Part shown: positions 2,579 through 54,565 of the stretch, piece after piece
How positions within the stretch are numbered: position 1 is the stretch's first letter
Layout of the letters: each line of letters starts with the position of its first letter
NCBI GenBank assembly: GCA_913776825.1
Contig: CAJYPV010000004.1
Coordinates: 62,001 to 126,000, forward strand
DNA: 64,000 nt
Reading direction: 5' to 3'
DNA from: Burkholderiaceae bacterium
GTDB taxonomy: Bacteria; Pseudomonadota; Gammaproteobacteria; Burkholderiales; Burkholderiaceae_C
Translations under genes and position numbers: made by a program
The notes under the pieces: generated by a model
What the model was told of the DNA's origin: nothing
The model's database searches: none
The model's input: only the letters and a program-made list of their open reading frames with translations

Positions 2579-3541
2579 TCACTCGACCTGGAATCCGATC
2601 TCCACGCTCACCTGACGGGCCTTCGGAATCGGCGCGAAGCGCCATTGCTTGACCGCCGCCACCGCGGCGTTGCTGAGCTTGCGATCCGGCGAGCGCAGCG
2701 CTTCCACATACTCGACCGAGCCATCCGGCTGCACCATGAAGCGGACCATCACCGCGCCATTGCGCTGCTGCGCCAGCAGAGCGCGTGGATATTCGGGTTC
2801 CACCTTGTGCATCAGCTTGAGCGGCACCTCGTCGTCCGACACGGCGGCAGCCGACGGCGCAGCGGGCGCCAGGCCGTTCGCCGGTGCGGCGCCGGCAGCG
2901 CCCATCGGGGCCACGTCTTGACCCCGAGCCTCGCCGGCCAGTGAAGGCACCGAGCCCGACGAGCCGGACGCGAGCGACGGCGCCGCCGTCGGCGTGGCCA
3001 CGGCCGCGCTGGCCGTGGCCGGTCCCGGGACCGCCGCCGCCATCGACGAAGGCCCGCCCACCGCAGCGGGCGGCGTCGACGTCGCCGCAGCGATCGTCTT
3101 GCTGTCGACGTCGGACTCCGACTTGCGGGCGACCGTCACCGGCGCGGGCGCCGCCTTGGCGACCGGCTTGGGCTCCGGTTTGGGTTCGGGCTTGGTCTCC
3201 GCCCGGGCTTCGTGTTTTTCAGGCTTCTTGGGCTCGCTCTTCTCCGCGTGGAACTTGATCCACTGGAAGACCTTGTCCGCATCACGACGCACTCGTTCGG
3301 CATCGCTGAGCGCGGCCGCCGAGTTCGCCGCCGCCGCCGCACCCGTGCCGCTGGCCGCCGATCCCGACGACGGCGCGGACGGCGCATTGGCCGTCTGGGC
3401 ATGGGCTGCCGCACCGGCGAGCGCCAGGCACAAGGTCAGGCAACGCGGCCAGGCCGCCGATTCGCCGAACGACAGCATCGAAGACAACGAAGGCCACGAG
3501 GACCCACGCGAGACAGGAGACCCGGGACGACGGCTGTTCAT
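2579..3541 (-). CDS. TonB-like protein with C-terminal TonB domain
   Basis: This 320-residue protein has a hydrophobic segment near residues 33-49 ending AAAHAQ (possible signal peptide), a long Ala/Pro/Lys-rich linker with KPEPKPEPKP, and a C-terminal TonB fold (about 235-320) with EPEYPRALLAQQ and the usual AAVAAVKQWRFAPI helix-strand end. TonB C-terminal domains contact outer-membrane receptors or act as periplasmic scaffolds. There are no adjacent exbB, exbD or receptor genes, so it may be an accessory TonB-domain protein rather than the energy transducer. The ATG at 3541 follows AGAGGGTGG. An internal Met at residue 22 lacks a ribosome-binding site. Confidence 0.8.
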   Translation of the reverse strand: MNSRRPGSPVSRGSSWPSLSSMLSFGESAAWPRCLTLCLALAGAAAHAQTANAPSAPSSGSAASGTGAAAAANSAAALSDAERVRRDADKVFQWIKFHAEKSEPKKPEKHEARAETKPEPKPEPKPVAKAAPAPVTVARKSESDVDSKTIAAATSTPPAAVGGPSSMAAAVPGPATASAAVATPTAAPSLASGSSGSVPSLAGEARGQDVAPMGAAGAAPANGLAPAAPSAAAVSDDEVPLKLMHKVEPEYPRALLAQQRNGAVMVRFMVQPDGSVEYVEALRSPDRKLSNAAVAAVKQWRFAPIPKARQVSVEIGFQVE

Positions 3542-3861
3542 GAATCCACCCTCTGAGGCAAACGCCGGTTTCTGTTTGTTAGCAACGCCACGGCAAGAGC
3601 GACAAAGTGTAAGAAGTCACCTGACACCTCCCCCCTCGGGGTTTGCCCGAACCGACACGTAACGGCGCGCCGGGTGTCGCAGATTTCACAAATCGCGCCA
3701 GCCCCGTCGCCATGGGACTTCTGATCGATCCGCCCATTCATCGGCGCAGTCGTCGGGTCGTGGTGCACCGCGCACCAGAGGCGCGCCCGATGCACCAGTC
3801 TCGACCTCCTGCGATCGACCCAGCCGCGACGCACGACGCAGTCCCCCTATACTGATCGCTT
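3542..3861. other. Intergenic region upstream of the thiamin riboswitch
   Basis: About 320 bases without a supported gene between the start of the TonB-like gene and the riboswitch. The only element I would name is TATACT at 3848-3853, a good -10 hexamer about 10 bases before the riboswitch begins. No convincing -35 accompanies it. The promoter of the TonB-like gene must also lie here but was not identified. Confidence 0.5.
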
Positions 3862-3985
3862 GCTCCGGGGTGCCCTGGGTGGTGTCAGCAACAGCTGGCC
3901 CCACACGGGCTGAGACATGGCGATGAAGCCGTGGACCCGCTGAACTTGATCCGGTTCGTACCGGCGTAAGAAGAGCCAGCCCTTG
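3862..3985 (+). promoter_or_regulatory. TPP riboswitch (THI box aptamer)
   Basis: This leader carries the thiamin pyrophosphate aptamer core: GGGGTGCCC near 3867-3875, GGCTGAGA at 3908-3915, and the pyrophosphate-side element from ACCCGCTGAAC (3935) through GATCCGG, ACCGGCG and TAAG to 3970, closing at GAGCCAGC. It precedes thiC, the usual target. Binding of TPP is known to shut off expression of such operons. About 180 bases separate the aptamer from the thiC start, where the switching elements lie. Confidence 0.93.
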
Positions 3986-4042
3986 CGGCGCCTCGTCCCT
4001 TCCCGCTGTGCATCCGCCGTGCCTTCACCAGGCACCGCTTGA

Positions 4043-7242: not shown

Positions 7243-7577
7243 ACGAGATCCTCAGCCCAGGGCCGGGATCGGCCTTGGCGGCGACATCGCCCCGCACGGA
7301 ATCGGAAACGACGACCCAGACCCAGACCAAGGGCGAGACCGCCATGCGGCACGGTAGCCTGAACGACGCCGCCGATCTCACCATCCGGCTCGACGATCAG
7401 CCCCTCACGCTCCCGATCGGCGCCACGCTGGCCGATCTGCTGGCCCATCAGCAGCGCCGACCCGAGACCGTGGCGACCGCCGTCAACGGCCGGTTTGTCG
7501 CCCGCGATCGTCGCGGCGACACCGTGCTGCGTGACGGCGATCAGGTGCTGTTCTTCCAACCGATCGTCGGAGGCTGA
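7239..7577 (+). CDS. thiS: Sulfur carrier protein ThiS with N-terminal extension
   Basis: The C-terminal 66 or so residues are a ubiquitin-fold ThiS ending in the Gly-Gly tail that is adenylated and thiocarboxylated to deliver sulfur to ThiG. From the ATG at 7239 the protein is 112 residues, some 45 longer than typical ThiS, with a Thr/Ser-rich extension. This start overlaps the thiO stop and has a CAGGAG ribosome-binding site, so translation from here is likely. A second start at 7344 would give a normal-length ThiS but has only a weak GAGA upstream. Function is clear; whether the extension survives is not. Confidence 0.9.
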   Translation: MNEILSPGPGSALAATSPRTESETTTQTQTKGETAMRHGSLNDAADLTIRLDDQPLTLPIGATLADLLAHQQRRPETVATAVNGRFVARDRRGDTVLRDGDQVLFFQPIVGG

Positions 7578-41882: not shown

Positions 41883-42806
41883 TCATGCCCCGCTCGACCA
41901 CGCCTGCACCGACGCTCGGGTCGCATCCGCATCCCACCACTGCCGCCACTGTGGTGACAAGGCGACCACCTCCCCGATCACCAGCAGCGCCGGACTGGGC
42001 AGTTGCGCCAGGGCGATGTCGGCCGCCAGATGGCCGAGCGTGCTGAAGCAATCACGCTGATGCGGCGTGTGGGCGGCGCTGATGGCGACGGCCGGCGTGT
42101 CGGCGGACAGTCCGCCGGCCTGCAGCGCCGAGGCGATGAACGCGGCGCGGCTCAGTCCCATGTAGATCACCAGGGTGAGGCGGCTTTGCGCCAGCGCGGC
42201 CCAGTCCGGCGCGCGTCCGTGCTCGCCGTTGTGTCCGGTGACGAAGGCCACGCCGGGCGTGCAGCGGCGATCGGTGATCGGCACCGCCACCGATGCCGGC
42301 GCGGCCAGACCCGCCGACACGCCATTCACCACCTCGACCGCCATGCCCGCCTCGCGCAGCGCATCAGCCTCTTCCCCGCCGCGGCCGAACACAAAGGGGT
42401 CGCCGCCCTTGAGCCGCACCACCCGCGCACCTGCGCGGGCCTCGCGGATCATCAGCTCATGGATGAAGCGCTGCTCGGTCGACACGCACCCACCCCGCTT
42501 GCCCACACGCAGCACCCGCGCCGACGCCGGCAGACACGCGAGCACGCGCGGATCGACCAGATCGTCGGTCAGCACCACATCCGCCTGCTGCAAGCGCTTG
42601 AGCGCGCGCACCGTCAACAGCTCGGGATCGCCCGGGCCTGCGCCGACCAACGACACCGCATGCACCTTGCGAGCGAGAGGGCCGCCCAAGCCGCCATCCA
42701 TCGCGTGTCCATCCATCGCGTGCCCATCTGACGCGCGCTCATCCGGCGCCGCACCACATACGGCCGCATCGAGTTCATCGAGCTCAATACCCATCAGAGA
42801 CGTCAT
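41883..42806 (-). CDS. cobA: Uroporphyrinogen-III C-methyltransferase
   Basis: A 307-residue SUMT that methylates uroporphyrinogen III twice to precorrin-2, the route to siroheme. Signatures are VSLVGAGPGDPELLTV, the GKRGG loop, and LKGGDPFVFGRGGEE. The 45-residue N-terminal lead before the core contains a short Asp-Gly-His-Ala-Met repeat. It is the last gene of the nitrate operon, overlapping nasA by four bases and preceded by AAGGAG. Siroheme is the cofactor of NirB, which explains the linkage. There is no CysG-type oxidase/chelatase part, so siroheme synthesis is finished elsewhere. Confidence 0.95.
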   Translation of the reverse strand: MTSLMGIELDELDAAVCGAAPDERASDGHAMDGHAMDGGLGGPLARKVHAVSLVGAGPGDPELLTVRALKRLQQADVVLTDDLVDPRVLACLPASARVLRVGKRGGCVSTEQRFIHELMIREARAGARVVRLKGGDPFVFGRGGEEADALREAGMAVEVVNGVSAGLAAPASVAVPITDRRCTPGVAFVTGHNGEHGRAPDWAALAQSRLTLVIYMGLSRAAFIASALQAGGLSADTPAVAISAAHTPHQRDCFSTLGHLAADIALAQLPSPALLVIGEVVALSPQWRQWWDADATRASVQAWSSGA

Positions 42807-45802
42807 GGAAACTCCTTCGCGGCGCCGATGAAACCGGCTTCGGCGCGGATGGGGGATTGGGGAAGCGCAGCGCTGCCGCCCCCCGCATCGCTGCCCGACG
42901 CGGGCTCGCTGCGCACCAGGCGACGCAGCGTCGGCAGGCAGGAGCCGCATTGGGTGCCGCAGCGCAATTCGGCTTGCAGGGCGGCCAGTCGCTGGTCCTC
43001 TCCCTGGCCGGAGGCTGACCGCTGCAGGCAGGCGCGGATCGCGTCCTCGCGCACGTTGAAGCAGGTGCAGACCTGCGGACTGCCGACGGGCAGCGCCTGC
43101 GTCGCGTCCGGGGCCAGCAAGCGATGTCCCATCGCGGCGACCGGCGCGCGCTCACGCCACAGCGCCTCCAGCCAGGCGCCGTCGTCGCCCTCGCCGCTGC
43201 GCAGCAAGGCCTGCAGACGCGCCTGATCACCCGCACCGGACAAACGCAAGGCGCGGCTCCGGCCACGGCGCCCATCGGCGTAACGCAACACGCCGGGGCC
43301 CGTCAGTCCAAGCAGCGTGGACAAGGCGACCACCAGCGCGGCCGGCGGCGGCTCGGCGAACGCCAGCGAGAGGCTCCAGCCTTCGTCTCGCCCATCGCGC
43401 CCATCGCGCTCATCACCCTCGTCGCCTTCATCGCCTTCTCTTCCCTCGACGGCTCCTCCGCCCCAGTGACTTCCCAATGAGGTGGGCGCTGGGAGACAGC
43501 AGGCGTAATCCGCTTCGTTCATCAGGCTGCGGAGTTGATCGCGCAGCGCAGCGCCTTCGCCCGCCGGCACCCAGGCCGCACCGACGACGCGCCAGGGCAG
43601 CTCGACCGCCTCCACCGACACCGCGGCGAACTTGAGCTCGGGCTGACGCGCGTCCGGGCAGAAGGCCGGTTGGGTCACCGCATTCACACCCAGCGCGTCG
43701 CGACCTCCGAGGAACTCGCTGCCCCAGTGCATCGGCAGCCACGCGCGCTGCGGGCCCACCGTCTCATCCGCGATCGCCGGGACGATGAGCGCTCCCCGCC
43801 GTGACCGCACCCGGACCAGCCCGCCGGGCGTCAGTCGACGCCGCGCCATGTCGGCGGGATGCAGCCGCAGCAGCGGCCCGGGCTCGCCCGCAAACAACGC
43901 CGTCACCGTGCCGCTGCGGCTCATGCCATGCCACTGGTCGCGCAGGCGGCCCGTGCTGAGCGCCAAGGGGAATCGAGCATCCTGCAGCTCGGCGGTCGGC
44001 GCGAAGGGTCTGGTGATGAACCGGGCCCGCCCATCGGCATGCGCAAAGCGAAAGTCCTGGTACAGCCGCGCGCGGCCCTCGATCGCGCCTTCCGGCCAGG
44101 GCCACTGGCGCGGCGCCGTCTCCAGCATCGGATAGCTCAGGCCGGTGATGTCGAGGTCGCGCCCGCGGGTCGCCTCGCGATGTTCGCGCCACAGGTCTTC
44201 CGGCCCCTGCCAGTCGAACAGCGCCGGCCCCTCGGGTCGCAGCGTGCGCGACAGCCCCTGCGCGATGTCCCGCACGATGCGCCAATCCGCTCGCGCTTCG
44301 CCGGGCGGCGGCAGCGCGGTGCGCACCCGGCTGATGCAGCGCTCGCTGTTGGTGACCGTGCCGTCCTTCTCCGCCCAGGTGGCGGCCGGCAGGATGACAT
44401 CGGCGAAGGCGGCGGTCTCGGTGCCGGTGAAGGCCTCCTGCAGGATGACGAACTCGCAGCGTTCCAGCGCGGCGCGCACCAACGCCTGGTCCGGCAGTGA
44501 CTGGGCCGGATTGGTGCAGGCGATCCACAGGGCCTTGATCTCGCCTCGGGCGGCGGCCTGGAACATCTCCACCGCCGTTTTGCCGGAGGCGTCGGGCAGC
44601 TCGGACACGCCCCACAGCGCGGCCACCTCGCGGCGATGCGCGGCATTCTCCGGATCGCGATGCCCCGGCAGCAGCGTGGCCATGCCGCCGGTCTCACGGC
44701 CGCCCATCGCATTGGGCTGACCGGTGAGCGAGAACGGCCCCGCGCCCGGTCGTCCGATGTGGCCTGTCGCCAGATGCAGATTGATCAGCGCTGTGTTGTT
44801 GGCCGTGCCCTGATGGCTCTGGTTCAAGCCCATGCAGTAGAGCGACAGCGTCGCCGGCGACCGCGCGAACCACTGCGCGGCCTGCAGGATCTGCGCCTCC
44901 GGCAATCCGGTCAGCCGGGCCGATTCAGCCGGCGTCATGGTGCGCACCGACCGCTTGAGCGCGTCGAAGCCGTCGGTGTGCTGCTCGATGAAGTCGCGGT
45001 CGATCCAGCCTTCCCAGATGCAGGCATGCAGCAAGCCCTGGAACAAGGCGACATCGCTGCCCGGTCGCAGCGCCAGATGCAGATCGGCGAACTCGGCGGT
45101 TTCGGTCCGGCGTGGATCCACCACGATCAACTTCATGCCCGGCCGCTGCGCCCGCGCCGCCTCGATGCGACGGAACAGCACCGGATGGGCCCAGGCCGGA
45201 TTCGCACCGGCGATGAACAGGCAGTCCGCCAGCGCCAGATCCTCATAGCAGGTGGGCGGCGCATCGGCGCCCAGCGACTGCTTGTAGCCCACCACCGCCG
45301 AGCTCATGCACAGCCTGGAGTTGCTGTCGATGTGGGGCGTGCCGATCAGGCCGCGCGCCAGCTTGTTGAAGGCGTGATAGTCCTCGGTGAGCAGCTGGCC
45401 GGAGAGGTAGAACCCGATCGCCTGCGGCCCATGCGCCGCACGCACCGCCAGCAGGCGCTCGACGACCTGCGCTTGCGTCGTCGCCCAATCGCTGGGCGTC
45501 CATGGATCGCCGCGGGCCGCGCGCCATGCCGGCTGCTGATAGCGCTGATGACGTCGAACCGACGGCGTGGCGGTCAGGTGCAGGGTCGATCCCTTGGTGC
45601 ACAGGCGGCCCGCATTGGCCGGATGCGCCGGATCACCGCGCACGCCGACGACCCGCGTGCCGGCGCCCTGCCCCTGAGTGTCGATCAGCACGCCGCAGCC
45701 CACGCCGCAGTAGGGACAGGTGGAGCGGGTCGTGGTCGTGGTCGTGGTCGTGCGAAGGGGCGGCGCAGCCGTCACGGGCGAGTCCCTCACATCCATCAGC
45801 AC
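42803..45802 (-). CDS. nasA: Assimilatory nitrate reductase catalytic subunit
   Basis: A 999-residue molybdopterin oxidoreductase that reduces nitrate to nitrite in the cytoplasm. The N-terminal [4Fe-4S] site is CPYCGVGCG (about 29-37), the Mo-bisPGD domains fill the middle, and a BFD-like [2Fe-2S] domain lies near the end (VCTCFNVRED, then CGTQCGSCLPTLRR), matching NasA/NarB proteins of proteobacteria. Two low-complexity stretches are visible: eight consecutive Thr near residue 18 and an Asp/Gly/Glu/Arg repeat near residue 790. The first Met is followed by a second two codons on. It overlaps the nirD end by 7 bp. Confidence 0.95.
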   Translation of the reverse strand: MLMDVRDSPVTAAPPLRTTTTTTTTRSTCPYCGVGCGVLIDTQGQGAGTRVVGVRGDPAHPANAGRLCTKGSTLHLTATPSVRRHQRYQQPAWRAARGDPWTPSDWATTQAQVVERLLAVRAAHGPQAIGFYLSGQLLTEDYHAFNKLARGLIGTPHIDSNSRLCMSSAVVGYKQSLGADAPPTCYEDLALADCLFIAGANPAWAHPVLFRRIEAARAQRPGMKLIVVDPRRTETAEFADLHLALRPGSDVALFQGLLHACIWEGWIDRDFIEQHTDGFDALKRSVRTMTPAESARLTGLPEAQILQAAQWFARSPATLSLYCMGLNQSHQGTANNTALINLHLATGHIGRPGAGPFSLTGQPNAMGGRETGGMATLLPGHRDPENAAHRREVAALWGVSELPDASGKTAVEMFQAAARGEIKALWIACTNPAQSLPDQALVRAALERCEFVILQEAFTGTETAAFADVILPAATWAEKDGTVTNSERCISRVRTALPPPGEARADWRIVRDIAQGLSRTLRPEGPALFDWQGPEDLWREHREATRGRDLDITGLSYPMLETAPRQWPWPEGAIEGRARLYQDFRFAHADGRARFITRPFAPTAELQDARFPLALSTGRLRDQWHGMSRSGTVTALFAGEPGPLLRLHPADMARRRLTPGGLVRVRSRRGALIVPAIADETVGPQRAWLPMHWGSEFLGGRDALGVNAVTQPAFCPDARQPELKFAAVSVEAVELPWRVVGAAWVPAGEGAALRDQLRSLMNEADYACCLPAPTSLGSHWGGGAVEGREGDEGDEGDERDGRDGRDEGWSLSLAFAEPPPAALVVALSTLLGLTGPGVLRYADGRRGRSRALRLSGAGDQARLQALLRSGEGDDGAWLEALWRERAPVAAMGHRLLAPDATQALPVGSPQVCTCFNVREDAIRACLQRSASGQGEDQRLAALQAELRCGTQCGSCLPTLRRLVRSEPASGSDAGGGSAALPQSPIRAEAGFIGAAKEFP

Positions 45803-46176
45803 GACACCCGGGTGCAGGGCCCGGCCTGGACCGGCGCCAGATCGATGGCGATCGTCTCCAGCTCCTGACGGTCCAACAGCACCTGGCCTGCATCGATGCG
45901 AACCTGGAAGACCGGCGTGCGCCCCTCATCGGGCTCCCGCGCGCAGCCGCTGTCCAGCGCGATGGTCCAGTTGTGCAGTGGACAGGCCACCGCGTCGCCA
46001 AACACGATGCCTTGGCTCAACGGGCCGGCCTTGTGAGGACATCGGTCGAGCAGCGCGAAGACCCGATCGTCCGAGGTGCGGAACAGCGCCACCTGCGGCC
46101 CTCGGTCGCGGGCGACGCGGCGTGACCCCAGCACCGGGATGTCGGTCAGGGCGCAAACGGGAATCCAGTGGTTCAT
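45796..46176 (-). CDS. nirD: Nitrite reductase small subunit NirD
   Basis: A 126-residue Rieske-fold protein, the small subunit of NAD(P)H-dependent assimilatory nitrite reductase. It has CPHKAGPLSQG and CPLHNW, so both Cys-His pairs of a true Rieske centre are present; several NirD proteins lack them. The ATG at 46176 has GAGGT upstream; an earlier Met at 46194 is less likely. It lies between nirB and nasA on the same transcript. Confidence 0.94.
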   Translation of the reverse strand: MNHWIPVCALTDIPVLGSRRVARDRGPQVALFRTSDDRVFALLDRCPHKAGPLSQGIVFGDAVACPLHNWTIALDSGCAREPDEGRTPVFQVRIDAGQVLLDRQELETIAIDLAPVQAGPCTRVSC

Positions 46177-46221
46177 GGGGACCTCGCAGGACATGTCGAA
46201 AGGCGGGGGCGTCGCACCGCG

Positions 46222-48819
46222 TCAAGCCATCGCGGCGCGGTCGGAGGGCGAGGTGCCGGCGAGCGTGGTGCCGGACGCTGCGCTGTGCACGTCGCTGAGC
46301 GCAGCGCCCGACGCGACTGTGGCGGCCGTGGCGGCCTCGATCGAGTTTGGGCTCGACGCCACACCTCGCGGTGCGCCACCCTGCGCGTCCAGCGGGGTGA
46401 ACTGGCGCAGATCGACCTGCGCCTGACTGAACTCGAACCACGGGTCGGGCTCGCCATCGAGCGCGAACTGCAATTCCTGCCACAGCGCGCGCCGGCCCTC
46501 GGCGTCGTCGAGGATGCGCCGCTTCACATGGTCCAGGCCCACCCGGGCGACGTAATGGACCGTGCGCTCCAGATACCAGCCTTCCTTCCGATAGAGCTGC
46601 ATGAAGGCGCCGGTGTACTCCAGCACCTCTTCGGGCGTCTTGAGCTTGGTGAAGAAATGCGCGACCTCGGTCTTGATGCCGCCGTTGCCGGCGATGACCA
46701 TCTCCCAGCCCGAGTCCACGCCGATGATGCCGACGTCCTTGATGCCGGCCTCCGCGCAATTGCGGGGGCAACCGCTGACGGCGAACTTCACCTTGTGCGG
46801 TGCGTACATGCGCCACATCGCCCGTTCCAGGTCCTTGCCCATCTGGGTGCTGTCCTGCGTGCCCATGCGGCACCACTCGGAACCGACACAGGTCTTCACC
46901 GTGCGCAGCGCCTTGGCATAGGCATGACCGCTGGGCATGCCGATGTCACGCCACACGTTCACCAGGTCTTCCTTCTTCACGCCCAGCAGATCGATGCGCT
47001 GTCCGCCGGTGACCTTCACCGTCGGGATCTTGTATTTGTCGACCGCATCGGCGATGCGGCGCAGCTCATTGGCGGAGGTCTCGCCGCCCCACATGCGCGG
47101 GATCACCGAATAGGTGCCGTCCTTCTGGATGTTGGCGTGGCTGCGCTCATTGATGAAGCGCGATTGCGGATCGTCGACCGCTTCCTTCGGCCAGGACGAG
47201 ATCAGGTAGTAGTTCAGCGCGGGGCGGCAGGTGGCGCAGCCGTTGGGCGTCTTCCAGTCCAGCTGCTGGAACACATCGGCCATGCGCACCAGATGCTGCT
47301 GGAAGATGGCGTCCCGCACTTCCTGATGGCTGTGCTCGGTGCAGCCGCAGACGGCCTTTTTCTTCGGCGTGGTGGAGTAATCACCGCCCGCCGTGACCAT
47401 CAGCAACTGCTCGACCAGGCCGGTGCAGGAGCCGCAGGAGGCACTGGCCTTGGTGTGCTTGCGCACCTCTTCCAGCGTGAACAGCCCCTTGTCCTTGATC
47501 GCCTTGCACACGGCGCCCTTGCTCACGCCATTGCAGCCGCAGACCTCGTCGCTGTCGGCCATCGCGGCGGCGCGGTTCTGGCCTTGATGGCCGACATCGC
47601 CCAGATTGCTCTCACCGAACATCAGCTTGTCGCGGATGTCGGCGATGCGCCGGCCGTCACGCAGCAGCTTGAAGTACCAGCTGCCATCGACGGTGTCGCC
47701 ATACAGGCAGGCGCCGACCAGGCGATCGTCCTTGATCACCAGTTTCTTGTAGATGCCGGCGAAGGGGTCGCTCATCACGATCTCTTCGGTGCCCTCGCCG
47801 CCCATGAAGTCACCGGCGGAGAACAGATCGATGCCCGTGACCTTGAGCTTGGTGCTGGTCTGGCTGCCCAGATAACGACCGATGCCGAACTGCGCCAGAT
47901 GATTCGCGCAGACCTTGCCCTGCTCGAACAGCGGCGCCACCAGCCCATAGGCCATGCCCCGGTGCGCAGCGCACTCGCCGACCGCATAGATGCGGGGATC
48001 GGTGACGGTCTGCAGCGTGTCGCTGACCACGATGCCGCGCTGGCAATGCAGGCCGGCGCGCTCCGCCAGAGCAGTGTTCGGACGGATGCCGGCGGCCATC
48101 ACCACCAGGTCGGCCGGGATTTCCTCGCCGCCACGCAGGCGCACGGCCATCACACGGCCGTCCCGGTCGCCGATCAGGGCTTCGGTCTGCGCGCCCATGC
48201 GAAAGCGCAGGCCGCGGGACTGCAACGACTGACGCAGCAGCGCCCCGGCCTGGTCGTCGAGCTGGCGTTCCATCAGCCACTCGTTCAGATGCACCACCGT
48301 GACCTGCATGCCGCGACGCATGAGGCCGTTCGCGGCCTCCAGCCCCAGCAGCCCGCCGCCGATCACCACCGCGTGGCGATAGCGGGCGGCGGCGTCGATC
48401 ATCGTCTGGGTGTCGGTGATGTCGCGGTAGCCGATCACGCCGGCCAGCTCCTTGCCGGGCACGGGCAACAGGAACGGCGTCGATCCGGTCGCGATCAGCA
48501 GCCGGTCATAGGCGGCGGTGGTGCCGTCGTCGGCCGTCACCTGCCGGCGCACGCGATCGATGCCGGTCACCGTCTTGCCCAGGTGCAGGCGGATGCCGTT
48601 GTCCTCATACCAGGACAGCGGATTGAGGATGATCTCGTCCAGCGTCTGCTCACCGGCCAGCACCGGACTGAGCAGGATGCGGTTGTAGTTGGGGTGCGGT
48701 TCGGCGCCGAAGACGGTGATGTCGTAGAGGTCGGGCGCGATCTTCAGCAGCTCTTCGAGCGTCCGCACCCCGGCCATGCCGTTGCCGACCATCACCAGTT
48801 TCATCCGTGTCGTGCTCAT
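46222..48819 (-). CDS. nirB: Nitrite reductase large subunit NirB
   Basis: An 865-residue NirB that reduces nitrite to ammonium with six electrons. Order of parts: FAD/NAD(P)H oxidoreductase (about 1-300, VMVGNGMAGVRTLEELL at the start), two BFD-type [2Fe-2S] segments (about 430-480 with CGCNGVSKGAVC, then about 500-540), and the siroheme/[4Fe-4S] reductase half (about 560-800), with VGSEWCRMG and SGCPRNCAEAG supplying cluster cysteines. A tail of about 45 Ala/Ser/Thr-rich residues follows, longer than usual. The operon also supplies CobA for its siroheme. Confidence 0.97.
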   Translation of the reverse strand: MSTTRMKLVMVGNGMAGVRTLEELLKIAPDLYDITVFGAEPHPNYNRILLSPVLAGEQTLDEIILNPLSWYEDNGIRLHLGKTVTGIDRVRRQVTADDGTTAAYDRLLIATGSTPFLLPVPGKELAGVIGYRDITDTQTMIDAAARYRHAVVIGGGLLGLEAANGLMRRGMQVTVVHLNEWLMERQLDDQAGALLRQSLQSRGLRFRMGAQTEALIGDRDGRVMAVRLRGGEEIPADLVVMAAGIRPNTALAERAGLHCQRGIVVSDTLQTVTDPRIYAVGECAAHRGMAYGLVAPLFEQGKVCANHLAQFGIGRYLGSQTSTKLKVTGIDLFSAGDFMGGEGTEEIVMSDPFAGIYKKLVIKDDRLVGACLYGDTVDGSWYFKLLRDGRRIADIRDKLMFGESNLGDVGHQGQNRAAAMADSDEVCGCNGVSKGAVCKAIKDKGLFTLEEVRKHTKASASCGSCTGLVEQLLMVTAGGDYSTTPKKKAVCGCTEHSHQEVRDAIFQQHLVRMADVFQQLDWKTPNGCATCRPALNYYLISSWPKEAVDDPQSRFINERSHANIQKDGTYSVIPRMWGGETSANELRRIADAVDKYKIPTVKVTGGQRIDLLGVKKEDLVNVWRDIGMPSGHAYAKALRTVKTCVGSEWCRMGTQDSTQMGKDLERAMWRMYAPHKVKFAVSGCPRNCAEAGIKDVGIIGVDSGWEMVIAGNGGIKTEVAHFFTKLKTPEEVLEYTGAFMQLYRKEGWYLERTVHYVARVGLDHVKRRILDDAEGRRALWQELQFALDGEPDPWFEFSQAQVDLRQFTPLDAQGGAPRGVASSPNSIEAATAATVASGAALSDVHSAASGTTLAGTSPSDRAAMA

Positions 48820-49010: not shown

Positions 49011-49811
49011 TCAGGCCGCCGCGTCGTGGTGTCGATGCCGGCTGTAGAGGAAGTCGATCACCGCCTTGCGCGCGTGCATGTAGCCGGGGTCTTCGGCCAA
49101 TGCGACGCGGTCACGGGGTCGGGGCAGGTCGATGGACAGGACCTCGCCGATGGTCGCGGCGGGGCCGTTGGTCATCATCACCACGCGGTCGGAGAGCAGC
49201 ACGGCCTCATCGACATCGTGGGTGACCATCACCACGGTGCTGCGGGTGCGGGCCACGATCTTCAGCAGCTCGTCCTGCAAATGCGCGCGGGTGAGCGCAT
49301 CCAGCGCGCCGAAGGGCTCGTCCATCAGCAGCACCTTGGGTTGCATGGCCAGGGCGCGGGCGATGCCGACGCGCTGCTTCATCCCGCCGGAGATTTCATG
49401 CGGCCGTTTGTGCATCGCATGGCCCATGCCGACGAGTTGCAGGGCGGCATCGGTGCGGGCGTCCAGCTGTGGCCTGGACTCGGTGCGGCCGAACACCGAT
49501 TCCACCGCCAGCCGCACGTTGTCGAAGCAGCTGAGCCAGGGCAGCAGCGAATGGTTCTGGAACACGACGGCCCGGTCGGGACCCGGCCCGGCGATCTCCC
49601 GCCCGTCGCAGAGCAGTCCGCCCGACGACGGCCGGATCAGTCCGGCCATCAGGTTGAGCAGCGTGGACTTGCCGCAGCCCGAGTGCCCGATCAGCGTCAC
49701 GAACTCGCCCTGCGCGATGTCCAGATCGATCTCCCGCAGCGCATGGAACCGCCCCTGCCTCGAGGCAAACACCATCTCGACCTGCTGAATGCGAATGAAT
49801 GAATCGCTCAT
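49011..49811 (-). CDS. nrtD: Nitrate ABC transporter ATP-binding protein
   Basis: A 266-residue ABC ATPase of the nitrate/sulfonate/taurine group. Walker A is GHSGCGKST (about 48-56), the Q-loop is VFQNHSLLPW, the signature is ISGGMKQRVGIARALA, Walker B is VLLMDEPFGALD, and the switch histidine lies in VTHDVDEA. The ATG at 49811 has a GAGGTG ribosome-binding site; open sequence upstream runs into the repeat element and is not coding. It works with the permease and binding protein just upstream. The single ATPase presumably forms a homodimer. Confidence 0.94.
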   Translation of the reverse strand: MSDSFIRIQQVEMVFASRQGRFHALREIDLDIAQGEFVTLIGHSGCGKSTLLNLMAGLIRPSSGGLLCDGREIAGPGPDRAVVFQNHSLLPWLSCFDNVRLAVESVFGRTESRPQLDARTDAALQLVGMGHAMHKRPHEISGGMKQRVGIARALAMQPKVLLMDEPFGALDALTRAHLQDELLKIVARTRSTVVMVTHDVDEAVLLSDRVVMMTNGPAATIGEVLSIDLPRPRDRVALAEDPGYMHARKAVIDFLYSRHRHHDAAA

Positions 49812-49872
49812 CACCATCACCTCATCTCGATAGAACACCAACCGACACCACGACAACGGAGGCCCCCGGCCG

Positions 49873-50048
49873 ACACGTCCAGCGGAGCACGGAGATCCGG
49901 CTCTGCCGGGCTCCTGCTCGCCCCCTCGGGGGGCCGGCTTCAGCCGGTAGGGGGGGCCATCCACAACACGTCCAGCGGAGCACGGAGATCCGGCTTTGCC
50001 GGGCTCCTGCTCGCCCCCTGGGGGGCCGGCGTCAGCCGGTAGGGGGGG
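49873..50048. repeat. Tandem pair of a palindrome-rich intergenic element, about 84 bp each
   Basis: Two near-identical copies begin at 49873 and 49966 (period 93 bp), running from ACACGTCCAGCGGAGCACGG to the G-run at about 49957 and 50048. Each holds three small dyads: CCGGC/GCCGG around T-rich spacers, CCCCCT/GGGGGG, and CCGGC/GCCGG before TAGGGGGGG. Copies differ by a few bases only. The element lies between nrtB and nrtD inside the operon, and copy 2 supplies the last codons of nrtB. Confidence 0.88.
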
Positions 50049-50994
50049 ATCCGTCGACTACCCCGATCAGCTTCATCAACATCGCTTCGAGCAGCATGCC
50101 GATGGCGCCGATCACGAAGATCGCAATCAGGATGTGCTGGACATTCAGGTTGTTCCACTCGTCCCACACCCAGAAGCCGATGCCCACGCCGCCGGTCAGC
50201 ATCTCCGCCGCCACGATCACCAGCCAGGCGGTGCCCACCGACAGGCGCACGCCCGTCAGCAGATACGGCAACACCGCCGGCAGCAGGATGCGCGTCATCA
50301 GCTTCCATTCCGACAGCTGCAGCACCCGGGCGACATTCAGATAGTCCTGCGGCACCCGCTGCACGCCGACCGCGGTGTTCACCACCATCGGCCAGATCGA
50401 GCAGATGAAGATGGTCCAGATGGCCGCCGGATTGGCGCTCTTGAACACCAGCAATCCGATTGGCAACCAGGCCAGCGGCGAGACCGGCTTGAGCAGGCTG
50501 ATCAGCGGCGAGAGCATGCGGCTCGCGAATTCGAAACGGCCGATCAGAAAGCCCAGCGGAATGCCGACCAGCGCCGCCAACCCGAAACCCACGCCGACGC
50601 GCTGCAGCGAATACAGCACGTTCCAGCCGATGCCCTGGTCATTCGGCCCGCGGCGATAGAACGGATCGGCGAACAGCGCCACCGCCGCGTCCCAGGTCGA
50701 GCCGGGCGTCGGGAAGCTGCCGCCCTTGAGCGTCGCCAGGAACCACACCAGCCACAGCAGGCCCAGGCCGGTCAGCGGCGGCAGCACCCGCATCCAGAGG
50801 GCGCGCCAGTCCGTCGCGCGGCGTGATGTCTCGGCAGCGCGGCGCACGACGGGCACGGCAGCAGACGAAGACCGGTCGTCCCGCCCCGGTGACGCCAAGG
50901 AGGCGGACGAAGCGGGCGCAGGCACCGCCGCCGATGTCGTGCCGCCGGGCTCGGACGCCGCCTCGCCGGGGGAATGGAAGACTGCACTCACCAT
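50032..50994 (-). CDS. nrtB: Nitrate ABC transporter permease
   Basis: A 320-residue inner-membrane permease. After a 75-residue Ala/Ser/Pro-rich cytoplasmic lead come six predicted helices starting at PPLTGLGLLWLVWFLA. The EAA-type loop that contacts the ATPase is ARVLQLSEWKLMTRILLPAVLPYLLTG in position (about 225-250). AAGGAG precedes the ATG at 50994. The last residues, PPTG, and the stop codon fall inside the repeat element at 49966-50048, so the original 3' end has been replaced by repeat sequence. Core domain is intact. Confidence 0.93.
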   Translation of the reverse strand: MVSAVFHSPGEAASEPGGTTSAAVPAPASSASLASPGRDDRSSSAAVPVVRRAAETSRRATDWRALWMRVLPPLTGLGLLWLVWFLATLKGGSFPTPGSTWDAAVALFADPFYRRGPNDQGIGWNVLYSLQRVGVGFGLAALVGIPLGFLIGRFEFASRMLSPLISLLKPVSPLAWLPIGLLVFKSANPAAIWTIFICSIWPMVVNTAVGVQRVPQDYLNVARVLQLSEWKLMTRILLPAVLPYLLTGVRLSVGTAWLVIVAAEMLTGGVGIGFWVWDEWNNLNVQHILIAIFVIGAIGMLLEAMLMKLIGVVDGSPPTG

Positions 50995-51031
50995 GTCGAA
51001 CTCCTTGCGACGAATCGGATGGGCTCGGCGA

Positions 51032-52252
51032 TCAGCCGCGGACCTTGAAGCTGTCGGCGTACCTGGCGGGATCCTTGCCGTCCCACACCACGCCATCGAT
51101 GAGCTTGGCGCTGCGCAGGCTGTCCTGCGGCACGCTCACCCCCAGGGCGCCGGCGGCCTGCCGGTAGAGCTCGATCTGATTGATCTGGCGCGCCACGCCC
51201 AGATAGTCCGGATGCGCCTTGAGCAAGCCCCAGCGCTTGTGCTGGGTGAGGAACCACATGCCGTCCGAGAGCCAGGGGAAGTTGACCTGGCCGTCGTTGA
51301 AGAACTTCATGTAGTTGGGGTCGTCCCAGGTCTTGCCCAGTCCGTTCTGATAACGGCCGAGGATGCGCTGATTGATCGCATCGACGCTGGTGTTGACGTA
51401 GGCCTTGTCCGCGATGGTCTCGGCCATCTTCTGCTTGTTGGACAGGCTGGCATCGATCCAGCGACTGGCCTCCAGCACCGCCATGATCACCGCCCGCGCG
51501 GTGTTCGGGTACTTCTTGACGAAGTCGCCGGTGGTGCCCAGCACCTTCTCGGGATGGTCCTTCCAGATGTCCTGGGTGGTGGCGGCGGTGACGCCGATGC
51601 CATCGATGATGGCGCGATGGTTCCAGGGCTCGCCGACGCAGAAGCCATCCATGTTGCCCACCCGCATGTTGGCCACCATCTGCGGCGGCGGCACGGTGAT
51701 CACCTTGGCGGCCTGCATCGGATTCACGCCCGCGGCGGCCAGCCAGTAATACAGCCACATCGCATGGGTGCCGGTGGGGAAGGTCTGGGCGAAGGTGTAG
51801 TCGCGCGGCTGGGCCCGCATGACCTTGGCGAGCGAGGCGCCGTCCGTCGCGCCCGCATCGGCCAGCTTCTTCGACAAGGTGATCGCCTGACCGTTGTTGT
51901 TGAGGGTCATCAGCACCGCCATGTCCTTCTTCGGACCGGCCACGCCGAGATGCACGCCATAGACCAGCCCGTACAGCACATGGGCCATGTCGAGCTCGCC
52001 GTTGACCAGCTTGTCGCGCACGCCGGCCCAGGAGGATTCCTTGGTCGGCACGATCTTGATGCCGTACTTCTTGTCGAAGCCCAGGGCGGCGGCCATCACC
52101 ACCGAGGCGCAATCGGTCAGCGGGATGAAGCCGATGCGCACCTCCTCCTTCTCCGGTTTGTCCGAGCCCGCCGCCCAGGCGCCGCCGGGGAGCGCACCGA
52201 GTCCGGACAGGGCGGCCCCTGCGGCGAGCACCTTGCGACGTTCCGCACTCAT
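51032..52252 (-). CDS. nrtA: Nitrate ABC transporter substrate-binding protein
   Basis: A 406-residue NrtA/CmpA-type periplasmic binding protein. The N-terminus SAERRKVLAAGAALSGLG has paired arginines before a hydrophobic stretch, consistent with a Tat signal ending GGAWAAG. EEVRIGFIPLTDCASVVMA and PWNHRAIIDG are typical of nitrate binders. An AAGGAGGG site supports the ATG at 52252 over an earlier Met at 52288. First gene after the attenuator leader. It could be confused with NasS, the cytoplasmic nitrate sensor of the same fold, but the export signal argues for a transporter component. Confidence 0.93.
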   Translation of the reverse strand: MSAERRKVLAAGAALSGLGALPGGAWAAGSDKPEKEEVRIGFIPLTDCASVVMAAALGFDKKYGIKIVPTKESSWAGVRDKLVNGELDMAHVLYGLVYGVHLGVAGPKKDMAVLMTLNNNGQAITLSKKLADAGATDGASLAKVMRAQPRDYTFAQTFPTGTHAMWLYYWLAAAGVNPMQAAKVITVPPPQMVANMRVGNMDGFCVGEPWNHRAIIDGIGVTAATTQDIWKDHPEKVLGTTGDFVKKYPNTARAVIMAVLEASRWIDASLSNKQKMAETIADKAYVNTSVDAINQRILGRYQNGLGKTWDDPNYMKFFNDGQVNFPWLSDGMWFLTQHKRWGLLKAHPDYLGVARQINQIELYRQAAGALGVSVPQDSLRSAKLIDGVVWDGKDPARYADSFKVRG

Positions 52253-52367
52253 CAAACCCTCCTTCGACCCTTGAGAACCGTTGTGCATTCAAGATCTCCG
52301 ATGACGCGCGGCGCCGCGCAGGCGGTCCGCCATGTGCCGACCCGACCCGGTGCTGACACCGGAGCGG

Positions 52368-52437
52368 AAAACAAAAAAAGGCGTCGCGATCGGATGGTTC
52401 AGCGCCATGCGCTGGACACACCGGATCGGACGCCTTT
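52368..52437 (-). terminator. Attenuator terminator in the nitrate operon leader
   Basis: On the minus strand AAAGGCGTC (52437-52429) pairs with GACGCCTTT, extended by CGATC/GATCG with one bulged C, enclosing a further CAGCGC/GCGCTG hairpin. It is followed by TTTTTTTGTTTT (52379-52368). The 5' arm overlaps the loop and 3' arm of the second ANTAR-type hairpin, so the two structures exclude each other. It lies 116 bp before nrtA. Confidence 0.88.
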
Positions 52438-52483
52438 GTCCTGCCCGTTGAAGAGGCTGGAGGTCCACGCCGTTGCAGACCTC
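52428..52483 (-). promoter_or_regulatory. Two hexaloop hairpins, putative NasT (ANTAR) RNA target
   Basis: Hairpin 1 (52483-52460) has stem GAGGTC/GACCTC plus inner UGC/GUG closing hexaloop AACGGC. Hairpin 2 (52441-52428) has stem GGAC/GTCC and hexaloop AAAGGC. Both loops have A at position 1 and G at position 4, the pattern recognised by ANTAR antiterminators. The adjacent upstream gene encodes an ANTAR protein. Binding to both hairpins should block the overlapping terminator and allow nrtA transcription. Structure is read directly; binding is inference. Confidence 0.82.
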
Positions 52484-52494
52484 ACGGAGTTCAT

Positions 52495-52510
52495 TGCATG
52501 AAGCGTGCCA
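52495..52510 (-). promoter_or_regulatory. Sigma-54 promoter of the nitrate assimilation operon
   Basis: TGGCACGCTTCATGCA on the minus strand matches the sigma-54 consensus at all but one defined position and has exact GG-N10-GC spacing. Transcription should start near 52484, immediately before the first ANTAR-type hairpin. Sigma-54 use implies an enhancer protein such as NtrC. Its site is uncertain: GGTGCA-type half-sites lie at 52632-52658, but their arrangement is not the canonical NtrC palindrome. Confidence 0.82.
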
Positions 52511-52640
52511 GTGGCACCGGCCTGCCGTCGCGTTTAGGTCGCTCAGAGGAGAACGCCCCCTCGCGCGCCGTCGTGGCGCACGGCACCGGCCCCCCGCGAC
52601 TGGGCGGATGCGCCAACGCGGTGCGGTCTGCGGTGCAAAC

Positions 52641-52661
52641 CCTGGTGCAGGCTGCACCAGG
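52641..52661. other. Perfect dyad downstream of nasT
   Basis: CCTGGTGCA and TGCACCAGG flank a 3-base centre, 9 bp after the nasT stop and about 165 bp upstream of the predicted operon start. It could stop or stabilise the nasT transcript or serve as a protein site. GGTGCA/TGCACC resemble NtrC half-sites but face the opposite way from the known NtrC palindrome. Confidence 0.5.
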
Positions 52662-52669
52662 AGCGGCCT

Positions 52670-53338
52670 TCAGCCCGATCGCAGCAGGTCGTTCGCGTCG
52701 ATCACCCGTTGCGCCACCTGCGCCAGGGTTTCGCCGCGATCCATCGCCAGTTTGCGCAGCCGCTGATGGGCGCGTTCCTCGTCCAGGCCCATCTCCCGCA
52801 TCAGGATGCCTTTGGCCCGGTCCAGCGTCTTGCGGGACGCGAGTTGCGCCTGCGCCTTGCTGAGCTCTTCGCGCAGGGCCAGGTCTTGCTCGAACCGCGC
52901 GATCGCCACCTGCAGCACCGGCGCCAGTCGCTGCATCTGCAGGCCGGCGACGACATAAGCGCTGACCCCGGCCTGAATGGCGCGGCGCATCGGCGCCTGG
53001 TCGGCATCCTCGGCGAAGACCACCACCGGGCGCGGCAGCCGTTCGGACAAGGTGGCGAGGTTTTCCAGCGTGTCGCGGGTGGGCGACTCCGCATCGACGA
53101 TGACCACATCGGGCTGCAGCCGCAGCACACAGTCGTGGATCAGCGTGGCCTGCTCGATCACGCCCACCACCTCGCAGCCCTGACGCACCAGCTCATCGCG
53201 CAGCAGATCGACGCGGTGGGCACCGTCATCGATGAGCAGCACGCGCAGGCCGGCGGTGAACGTCGCGAGTGGGGAAGCGGGCGGCAGGGTCACGCGGCAG
53301 CCGGCGCAAGTTTCATGCCGATCGGCGGTCTCCCGCAT
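52670..53338 (-). CDS. nasT: ANTAR-domain nitrate response antiterminator
   Basis: A 222-residue NasT-type protein. Residues about 31-150 form a receiver-like domain (LRVLLIDDG, VVIVDAESPTRD) in which the usual lysine is missing (YVVAG), suggesting phosphorylation-independent control. The C-terminal 60 residues are the ANTAR RNA-binding helices (ASRKTLDRAKGILMREMGLDEERAHQRLRKLAMDRG). NasT proteins bind two-hairpin leaders and prevent termination; a matching leader lies directly downstream. In other bacteria NasT is held by NasS; no nasS is adjacent. The ATG at 53338 lacks a strong ribosome-binding site, and the first 28 residues, with a CXXC, are of uncertain use. Confidence 0.9.
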   Translation of the reverse strand: MRETADRHETCAGCRVTLPPASPLATFTAGLRVLLIDDGAHRVDLLRDELVRQGCEVVGVIEQATLIHDCVLRLQPDVVIVDAESPTRDTLENLATLSERLPRPVVVFAEDADQAPMRRAIQAGVSAYVVAGLQMQRLAPVLQVAIARFEQDLALREELSKAQAQLASRKTLDRAKGILMREMGLDEERAHQRLRKLAMDRGETLAQVAQRVIDANDLLRSG

Positions 53339-53482
53339 CCGGAGCGTGTGGCGCCCTCGCCCCGGATGCGGCCGCTGCGGCGGATTCAAGGGAGCCCAGG
53401 TCGTGGTTTCAGGGGGCTGCCACCCGAAGGCTGTCGGCATAAGGTCGGGCCGCACCGACCACGCACGGTGCCAGGAGTTCCC

Positions 53483-54565
53483 ATGAGCCACCGGATCACG
53501 CCCCGCCGCCCTCCCCCCGACCAGACCATCCTTCCCCGCGCAGGACGGCGCCCCGGCACGGCGCTGGTGTGGGCCCTGGCGGGCGTTCTGGCGATGCCGT
53601 TGGGGCTGTCGGCCCAGACTTTCGAAGCAGAGACCGTGGTGGATGTGTCGGTGCCCGGGCAGTCGATCGTGCGGCGCAGCGATCCCTTCACGCAAGCCGG
53701 CACGCTGGTCGACGGACAGCGTCTGGTGACGCGGGCGAGCGACCTGGACGGCGAGGGGCAGGTCCAGGTCAACGTCAGCGCCATGACGGCGCCGGGCCGC
53801 ATGGGGCTTTTCGCCCGCAGCACGGCGTCGTTGACCACGTCGCAGAACGATGTCTGGAGCGCGTCCTGGGGGGAAGCCTCGGCCACGATCAGCGACCGCT
53901 TCATCCTCAGCTGTCCGACCTGCGTGGTCGGCAGCGTGGGTTGGTTGACCGTGTCTTTGCGCATGGACGGCACCACGCGGCTGGACGGCCTTGACCACAC
54001 GGGCGCCGGCGGCAATACCCGGTTTTACGGCTCGGGCGGCTGGGGCACCTCGTTCTCGATGCATGCGCAGAACGTCCCGTGGGAACCCTCGCCGGATCCG
54101 AACGATTTCGACCCGGATCCTTCCAGGATCGTTCGCTCCACGTGGGAAAGGAATATCTGGAGCAACGACGGTCCTGATAGCGAGGGCCGCAACGATTGGG
54201 ATGCACTGACCGTCGCCTTCGTCTTCGGGGAGCCGATCGACTTCCAATGGACCGCCTCGGTCGTCACCCTGGCGATGGTGGGACCGCAGTCCCAGACGCC
54301 CGAGGCGGGCGGCGTCTCGGGCCGAGCGCTGGCGGAGGTCGACCGGGCGCAATCCTTCATCTGGGATGGGATCACCGTGCTGGGCAGCAACCAGCAGCCC
54401 GTCGCCGGCCTCGTCGCCCTCAACGCCAACGGCGTGGACTACGCCCACAGCTTCGCCACCGCTGTACCGGAGCCCAGCTCGTGGCTGCTGATGGGCGCGG
54501 GGGCGGCGCTGCTGGGCGTGCTGGCACGCCGGCGGCGGCAGGGCGCCAGCGTCTCGCTGGCCTAG
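53483..54565 (+). CDS. PEP-CTERM sorting domain protein
   Basis: A 360-residue exported protein. An Arg/Pro-rich start and a hydrophobic stretch (about 27-45, ending GLSAQ) form the signal region. The body is a beta-rich, Ser/Thr/Asp-rich domain with no recognised fold. The C-terminus has VPEPSSWLLMGAGAALLG followed by Arg residues, the PEP-CTERM tripartite signal cleaved by exosortase. Such proteins are linked to exopolysaccharide and flocs in environmental bacteria. AGGAG precedes the ATG. It is divergent from nasT, with no exosortase genes in the window. Function unknown. Confidence 0.85.
   Translation: MSHRITPRRPPPDQTILPRAGRRPGTALVWALAGVLAMPLGLSAQTFEAETVVDVSVPGQSIVRRSDPFTQAGTLVDGQRLVTRASDLDGEGQVQVNVSAMTAPGRMGLFARSTASLTTSQNDVWSASWGEASATISDRFILSCPTCVVGSVGWLTVSLRMDGTTRLDGLDHTGAGGNTRFYGSGGWGTSFSMHAQNVPWEPSPDPNDFDPDPSRIVRSTWERNIWSNDGPDSEGRNDWDALTVAFVFGEPIDFQWTASVVTLAMVGPQSQTPEAGGVSGRALAEVDRAQSFIWDGITVLGSNQQPVAGLVALNANGVDYAHSFATAVPEPSSWLLMGAGAALLGVLARRRRQGASVSLA

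Follow-up and report, generated by a model that had tools for sequence, protein, structure and literature searches.

Between nasT and nrtA, in the 64,000-nucleotide stretch of Burkholderiaceae DNA analyzed here (the window), lies a short region that raises the question of how the nitrate assimilation operon downstream of it is switched on. An earlier note on this DNA had proposed a complete control region composed of a sigma-54 promoter and an ANTAR-type attenuator. We therefore asked which of its parts are present, whether relatives keep them, and which protein might report nitrate to the attenuator.

Elements of the nrtA control region

The elements claimed in the earlier note, a GG-N10-GC sigma-54 promoter, hairpin 1 with the loop AACGGC (P1), hairpin 2 with the loop AAAGGC (P2), and an intrinsic terminator reusing the loop and 3' arm of P2, were all found on the minus strand in the order given there and inside 52368-52510, and its coordinates proved correct (Table 1). 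The promoter TGGCACGCTTCATGCA has near-consensus flanks, with a single mismatch to TGGCACN5TTGCW in the consensus comparison. With its GG at -25/-24 and its GC at -13/-12, 10 bases separate it from the predicted +1, which by this spacing would lie one base ahead of P1, where the note had placed it. The bare sigma-54 consensus is not significant in the window (32 matches with up to two mismatches versus 33.5 expected); TGGCA(C/T)-N7-GC precedes nrtA in 83 of 83 related leaders when the best site within 450 bases is taken. The genome carries two genes of the rpoN type, and one of its proteins exceeds the cut-off for NtrC.

Sites for NtrC follow the motif TGCACC-N5-GGTGCA. An enhancer-like site of this type, CGCACCGCGTTGGCGCA, lies upstream of the promoter and was absent from the earlier note. 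Matches to at least 10 of the 12 motif positions occur in 23 of 80 upstream regions (the 83 minus L046, L093, and L097), the window's included, versus approximately one expected from shuffles. Their positions are scattered from about -36 to -186, eight of the 80 regions reach only seven matches, and in a scan of the whole window such matches were not rare elsewhere. Farther upstream, just past the nasT stop, a perfect inverted repeat (CCTGGTGCAG-C-CTGCACCAGG) includes TGGTGC-N5-GCACCA; it may be either the nasT terminator or a second activator site.

In the leader RNA, P1 (arms GAGGTCTGC/GTGGACCTC) and P2 are separated by a linker of 18 bases, and the 5' arm of the terminator consists of the P2 loop, the P2 3' arm, and GATC. 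P2 and terminator are built from the same bases and are therefore mutually exclusive. The full leader folds into P1 and the terminator, with an energy of -57.9 kcal/mol (z -5.0) that was matched by 0 of 200 shuffles, and a leader ended before the terminator 3' arm folds as P1 plus P2, the energy of the latter fold being ordinary (z -1.2, 27 of 200 shuffles as good). A simple terminator scan restricted to loops of three to eight bases made no call at 52373-52437. The region thus combines two A1/G4 hairpins of at least three pairs, C:G closing pairs, a terminator overlapping P2, and an ANTAR gene in the same genome; the C:G loop-closing pair is a criterion for ANTAR targets derived from NasR SELEX (PMC7496416). 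By these features, the control region is a further example of the known ANTAR-attenuator class.

Table 1. Coordinates of the control region and of the adjoining genes in the window
Feature	Position	Strand	Remarks
Sigma-54 promoter TGGCACGCTTCATGCA	52495..52510	minus	GG 52509-52508, GC 52497-52496
Predicted transcription start (+1)	52484	minus	from spacing to the -12 GC
NtrC-type enhancer-like site CGCACCGCGTTGGCGCA	52609..52625	minus	centre about -133; 10/12 motif positions
Perfect inverted repeat CCTGGTGCAG-C-CTGCACCAGG	52641..52661		10-base arms, one-base centre; read from sequence
P1	52460..52483	minus	9 pairs GAGGTCTGC/GTGGACCTC; hexaloop AACGGC (A1, G4), C-G closing pair
P2 (antiterminator) GGAC-AAAGGC-GTCC	52428..52441	minus	A1/G4 loop, C-G closing pair
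Intrinsic terminator	52373..52437	minus	5' arm 52437-52424, 3' arm 52391-52377, T-run 52379-52373
Shine-Dalgarno AAGGAGG of nrtA	52258..52264	minus	read from sequence
nrtA, nitrate ABC transporter binding protein	51032..52252	minus	PF13379, E 8.9e-102; twin-arginine-type signal by eye
nrtB, permease	50032..51027	minus	TIGR01183 above cut-off
nrtC, ATP-binding protein	49011..49964	minus	ORF bounds; TIGR01184 above cut-off
nirB, nitrite reductase large subunit	46222..48819	minus	TIGR02374 above cut-off
nirD-like Rieske protein	45796..46194	minus	recognized by eye in the translation
Assimilatory nitrate reductase (NasA/NasC type)	42803..45802	minus	NF041323 and NF047855 below cut-offs, E 4e-147 and 2.4e-140
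nasT	52670..53263	minus	gene end 52670, 5' bound provisional; PF03861 E 2.7e-18, PF00072 E 1.6e-8

Directly upstream of the leader lies, as claimed, the gene of an ANTAR protein, NasT, in which Pfam recognizes a receiver-like domain followed by ANTAR. Behind nasT, a convergent gene (about 53480-54565, plus strand) encodes a product with a PEP-CTERM-like sorting signal by eye, and no nasS neighbor was seen there. A start of nrtA at 52288 was rejected as an upstream extension; AAGGAGG precedes the ATG at 52252, and in window-type relatives the extended reading gives a translated ribosome site, (K)EGL, ahead of MS and the twin-arginine-type signal. About 120 bases separate the T-run from the nrtA start codon, and an RR pair is present near the NrtA N terminus in 82 of 84 loci. 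The best family match of the putative nitrate reductase is formate dehydrogenase alpha, likewise below its cut-off. Elsewhere in the window, a TPP riboswitch was found at 3856-3989 (plus strand, 62.5 bits).

Chance expectation and covariation

Among 60 copies of the window generated with a first-order Markov model, dual A1/G4 hexaloops with an overlapping terminator arose three times (0.05 per window), and the same arrangement with a sigma-54 site arose in none. The real window holds two dual-hexaloop places with a terminator, of which this one alone has the promoter.

For the family sample, 80 stretches surrounding ANTAR genes were taken from family members and combined with the genus loci. 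The sample contained 70 family and 14 genus loci bearing nrtA, of which 83 were analyzed after L133, a second copy of the L058 genome, had been dropped. Covariation was evaluated in an alignment of the 25 leaders whose NasT is of the window type (67-100% identity). Here 98.2% of the cells were paired versus 89.2% after shuffling, 48 cells carried double changes versus 12.3, and the covariation score of 0.339 versus 0.156 was reached in 0 of 500 shuffles. When the partner was slid by one to three columns, pairing fell to 32-53%. Changes on both sides were found in six of the eight aligned pairs of P1 and, in the loop-side half of the terminator, double changes in two of seven pairs; the seven pairs beside the T-run were invariant. 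For P1 and P2 alone, the score was 0.518 versus 0.218 shuffled (0 of 500). P2 itself is paired in all 25 leaders, with one compensatory change in one pair, and being nearly invariant it is supported weakly by covariation. The loop-closing columns 15-22 and 59-66 are C-G in 25 of 25 leaders, and unguided RNAalifold recovered P1 and the terminator in the consensus. Judged from these alignments, the element is not a product of chance, and its conservation is the decisive evidence.

Occurrence in this genome and in other genomes

A covariance model of P1-P2, termed R2, was used for genome searches. In this genome it found one strong place (E 7e-9), the next match having E 1.08; a NasT regulon of several operons was rejected here, as the next matches were at E 1.08 or weaker (150 of 6141 first-look candidates scored). 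One strong place was likewise found in 15 of 16 genus genomes, with other matches at E 0.1 or worse. The remaining genome, G156, has neither a strong R2 place nor a nasT orthologue (best NasT match E 1.8e-7), nor a strong nrtA match. The genus leaders had helped to build R2, and therefore only the absence of further sites counts as independent. With stricter filters, a class-wide search gave matches at E 0.01 or better in six of 274 genomes, this one included. Among the six places in the five other class genomes, L177, L179, L180, and L182 have the dual hairpin and a nitrate or ANTAR neighbor, and L178 and L181 have neither.

An independent set of at least 120 stretches from named genomes was fetched by the P2 plus terminator pattern alone. 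Among the 120 matches listed, 94 have a sigma-54 site no more than 190 bases upstream; for control positions drawn at random in 80 of these loci, irrespective of composition, the figure was 29 of 3831. The other 26 matches have none by the pattern used, three of them near a contig edge. At least one more A1/G4 hairpin closed by C-G was found in 77 of the 94 listed leaders with a promoter, two more in 29, and none in 17. Downstream, 104 of the 120 listed elements run into homologues of nrtA (89), nirB (12), or narK (3), and of the remaining 16, six stop no more than 450 bases short of the locus edge. A NasT or NIT-ANTAR match lies just upstream in 68 of the 120 listed.

The earlier note had described the leader as unusually compact, with no 5' tail before hairpin 1. 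This spacing turned out to be the usual one: among the 25 window-type leaders, 22 have the first base of P1 between +1 and +7, these 22 being the ones scored by the strict scan (the alignment shows a mismatch inside the stem in the other three). In the independent set, the first A1/G4 hairpin lies at +1 to +8, most often at +4, in 46 of 77 leaders among the matches listed; the remaining 31 have it at +13 or beyond, the scan having seen no A1/G4 hexaloop near the start. Because of these counts, a start beside the first hairpin is considered common. For EutV, the published idea is that a recruitment hairpin is gripped first and P2 is met as it leaves the polymerase (PMC8934654). By analogy, a start adjoining the first hairpin would suit this idea.

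Relatives with other hairpins or regulators

Among the 36 family leaders with a NasT 41-52% identical to that of the window, an A1/G4 hairpin is present near the start in 28 and in the middle in 16, and nine of the 36 have three A1/G4 hairpins (first, middle, P2) by the strict scan, e.g., L055, L079, L085, and L115. The nrtA leaders L046 and L095 likewise carry a series of three hairpins with A1/G4 hexaloops ahead of the terminator. A Mycobacterium RNA that binds the ANTAR protein PdtaR is predicted to form three hairpins (PMC8131098); it is described there as titrating PdtaR and, in this respect, is not an attenuator of the kind seen in the window. In seven leaders (L040, L042, L043, L047, L052, L067, and L088), the P2 loop starts with G (GACGGC, GATGGC, or GAAGGC), against the A1 rule, and in three of these (L040, L042, and L052) an A1/G4 hairpin is present in the middle as well.

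Twenty-two leaders were assigned to a 'NIT type' by a frame length of at least 395 amino acids, with L047 and L088 as exceptions to this rule; Pfam, run on two of the 22 (L054 and L081), found NIT in both, i.e., a NIT-ANTAR protein encoded before nrtA. The P2 loop is AACGGC in 19 of the 20 leaders of the NIT group in which P2 was found and AAAGGC in 25 of 25 of the window type. The P2 finder missed 12 of the 83 leaders (10 of 36 of type B and two of 22 of type C). ANTAR-PilJ proteins are encoded in L135 (1141-2673, plus strand), where the gene lies beside nrtC, and in L104 (2096-3382, plus strand); such a protein is a possible further nitrate sensor.

Relation to the Rfam families P11 and narK RNA

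The window region matches the narK RNA model (RF03032) at model positions 1-72 with 31.1 bits (E 0.0002, cut-off 43.2), and it aligns end to end with the P11 model (RF00625) with 19.1 bits (E 0.026, cut-off 70), both scores being below the cut-offs. At gathering scores, an Rfam scan found neither family in the window and 20 loci, and in 17 loci of the named set it gave a match in L258 only. As in the window, the narK RNA model runs from the sigma-54 GG through P1 (AACGGC) to P2 (AAAGAC); it differs from the window element in that only P1 is paired in Rfam and the terminator is not included. P11 has the order of the window, with a sigma-54 site (about position 13), hexaloop hairpins, GGAC-AAAGGC-GTCC, and an overlapping terminator, and differs by a further middle hairpin.

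Pseudomonas duriflava (L258) has both families above cut-off, at 2999-3135 and 7450-7519 (both minus strand). Its P11 match comprises TGGCACGTCCTCTGC, a hairpin with the loop AATGGC, a middle hairpin with the loop ATTGAA, P2 as GGAC-AAAGGC-GTCC, and a terminator; some 50 bases past the pattern match comes nirB, on the same strand. At a loose threshold, eight of 10 family leaders match one or both Rfam families with the promoter in register; L054 and L079 match neither. Given the agreement among the consensus layouts, P. duriflava, and these eight leaders, P11 and narK RNA look like members of the sigma-54/ANTAR leader class.

The literature searched did not mention 'narK RNA', 'narK motif', or RF03032. 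A 2024 study by Marogi is said to deal with P11 and nitrogen assimilation, and one by Romeo from 2012 reportedly deals with antitermination at Pseudomonas nirBD. The reading of P11 as a nirB leader is not claimed here as unpublished. In an eLife paper, P11 is described as a regulator of a nitrogen assimilation operon with effects in worms (PMC12080996); its main text, in the portion available, contains neither the word 'ANTAR' nor the word 'leader'.

NasT and the search for its sensor

NasT of the window consists of receiver-like and ANTAR domains, has no sensor domain, and is 40% identical to Paracoccus NasT. Active receivers carry a conserved lysine; control of NasT by phosphorylation was rejected, the receiver lacking this residue by eye. 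The usual nitrate sensor of NasT is NasS. Paracoccus NasS retains NasT as long as neither nitrate nor nitrite is present (PMC3795266).

Two proteins whose genes directly follow nasT, one from Caballeronia (L140) and one from a record labeled Roseateles sp. XES5 (L141, its organism flagged as unverified), served as NasS queries, their identity being taken from position and, for L140, also from the absence of a signal peptide by eye. With these queries, no cytosolic NasS was found in this genome (94% complete) or in its genus (16 genomes, the other 15 being 95-100% complete), and in 15 of the 16 the sole strong match was the exported NrtA. NrtA is 49% identical to the Caballeronia query and 31% to Paracoccus NasS. 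In G150, G155, G156, and G157, matches of 31-34% identity belong by eye to signal-bearing proteins of another transporter operon. A hidden NasS among the NMT1_2 matches was rejected as well; the C32 protein bears a signal of its own, and its neighbor is the permease of another transporter (by eye). In the family, 109 of 150 genomes have matches to the NasS queries at E 1e-20; the strong ones compared adjoin ANTAR genes by their coordinates, and weaker full-length ones are 30-40% identical. Four genus genomes (L303, L304, L305, and L306) contain, by eye, a second nrtABC-like operon; in three of them (L303, L305, and L306), a LuxR-type response regulator was seen upstream of it.

As no cytosolic NasS was found, either NrtA would act as sensor before its export or another protein does. 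The description of the control region as 'complete' thus stands for promoter, hairpins, and terminator, and does not extend to the signal side, where genome and genus offer no cytosolic NasS. One speculative proposal, which we put forward as rather unlikely, is that NasS has been lost, that NrtA may do its job while folded in the cytoplasm before Tat export, and that the P11 small RNA may be the terminated leader of a nirB operon.

Proposed mechanism and alternatives

We favor, with a probability of about 90%, two-layer control of the nrtABC-nirBD-nas operon by the sigma-54 promoter and a NasT-controlled ANTAR attenuator. The same combination, claimed for this nitrate operon in the earlier note, is upheld by the compensatory changes, the promoter in all 83 leaders, the single target per genome, the adjacent ANTAR gene, and the rpoN and ntrC genes. 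When nitrogen is short, NtrC bound near -133 would activate sigma-54 polymerase at the promoter, and the RNA would start roughly one base ahead of P1. In the default state, the terminator would form and release a small leader RNA of about 112 bases. In the presence of nitrate, a NasT dimer would grip the A1/G4 hexaloops of P1 and P2; with P2 held closed, the 5' arm of the terminator would be taken away, and the polymerase would read into nrtA. NasT binding and read-through are here inferred from published work on EutV, NasR, and NasT, ANTAR attenuation having been described in PMC3369931, PMC3369936, PMC7496416, and PMC8934654. In Paracoccus, induction was reported to be blocked by mutation of hairpin HI, not of HII (PMC5424462), and therefore the roles of the hairpins may differ between systems.

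The element might instead be mainly a stable trans-acting small RNA like Pseudomonas P11, with premature termination as its purpose rather than attenuation of nrtA. The end-to-end alignment with the P11 model, the same layout just upstream of nirB in P. duriflava, the role described for P11 (PMC12080996), and the existence of ANTAR-titrating small RNAs (PMC8131098) are consistent with it. It is at odds with a terminator whose 5' arm is made from an ANTAR-type hairpin and with the 104 of 120 listed elements that lead into nitrate genes, 68 of 120 having NasT or NIT-ANTAR just upstream. We regard it as improbable as the main function; the trans-acting and attenuator roles could coexist.

That the leader is bound by an ANTAR protein other than the adjacent NasT is very unlikely, since NasT alone exceeds the ANTAR cut-off in this genome, the other match being weak and partial, even though PilJ-ANTAR proteins are encoded in the genus and in the family (at least L135 and L104, one member each) and NIT-ANTAR takes the place before nrtA in some family members (more of them by frame length). 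Least credible of all is translational control, in which P1 and P2 would affect ribosome access and the terminator would be incidental. Some ANTAR targets do overlap ribosome sites (PMC3369931), but the nrtA ribosome site at 52264-52258 lies more than 100 bases past the T-run, and the terminator stem carries compensatory changes in relatives.

Comparison with known systems and implications

Two-layer control of this type is known from the nasF operon of Klebsiella oxytoca, a nitrate operon under Ntr control with an ANTAR attenuator (PMC3369936, PMC7496416, PMC5424462). As in the window, the nasF leader has two A1/G4 hexaloop hairpins with C:G closing pairs and a terminator overlapping P2; its regulator NasR senses nitrate by its own NIT domain, whereas the window encodes a NasT-type regulator that has no sensor domain. 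The NasS-NasT systems of Paracoccus, Bradyrhizobium, Pseudomonas, and Azotobacter share with the window a NasT-type regulator and leader hairpins before the nas genes (PMC3795266, PMC5424462). Unlike in those systems, no cytosolic NasS was found here beside NasT or in the genus, the nearest relative of NasS being the exported NrtA. The eut leaders controlled by EutV in Enterococcus resemble that of the window in their P1/P2 A1-G4 loops and in a P2 overlapping the terminator (PMC3369931), and differ in that EutV is a phosphorylated response regulator responding to an ethanolamine signal.

The sigma-54/ANTAR leaders of the relatives form a clean set that can be aligned, and this brings three questions within reach of testing. 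One is how NasT senses nitrate when NasS is missing; if NrtA is the sensor, it would be made only upon read-through of its own attenuator, giving a self-limiting loop. Another is why some relatives have three A1/G4 hairpins when the dimer model needs two. The third concerns Pseudomonas P11, which has been investigated as a small RNA affecting worms, and asks whether it is primarily the prematurely terminated leader of the nirB operon; if so, deletion of P11 would also remove the promoter and the antiterminator of the operon.
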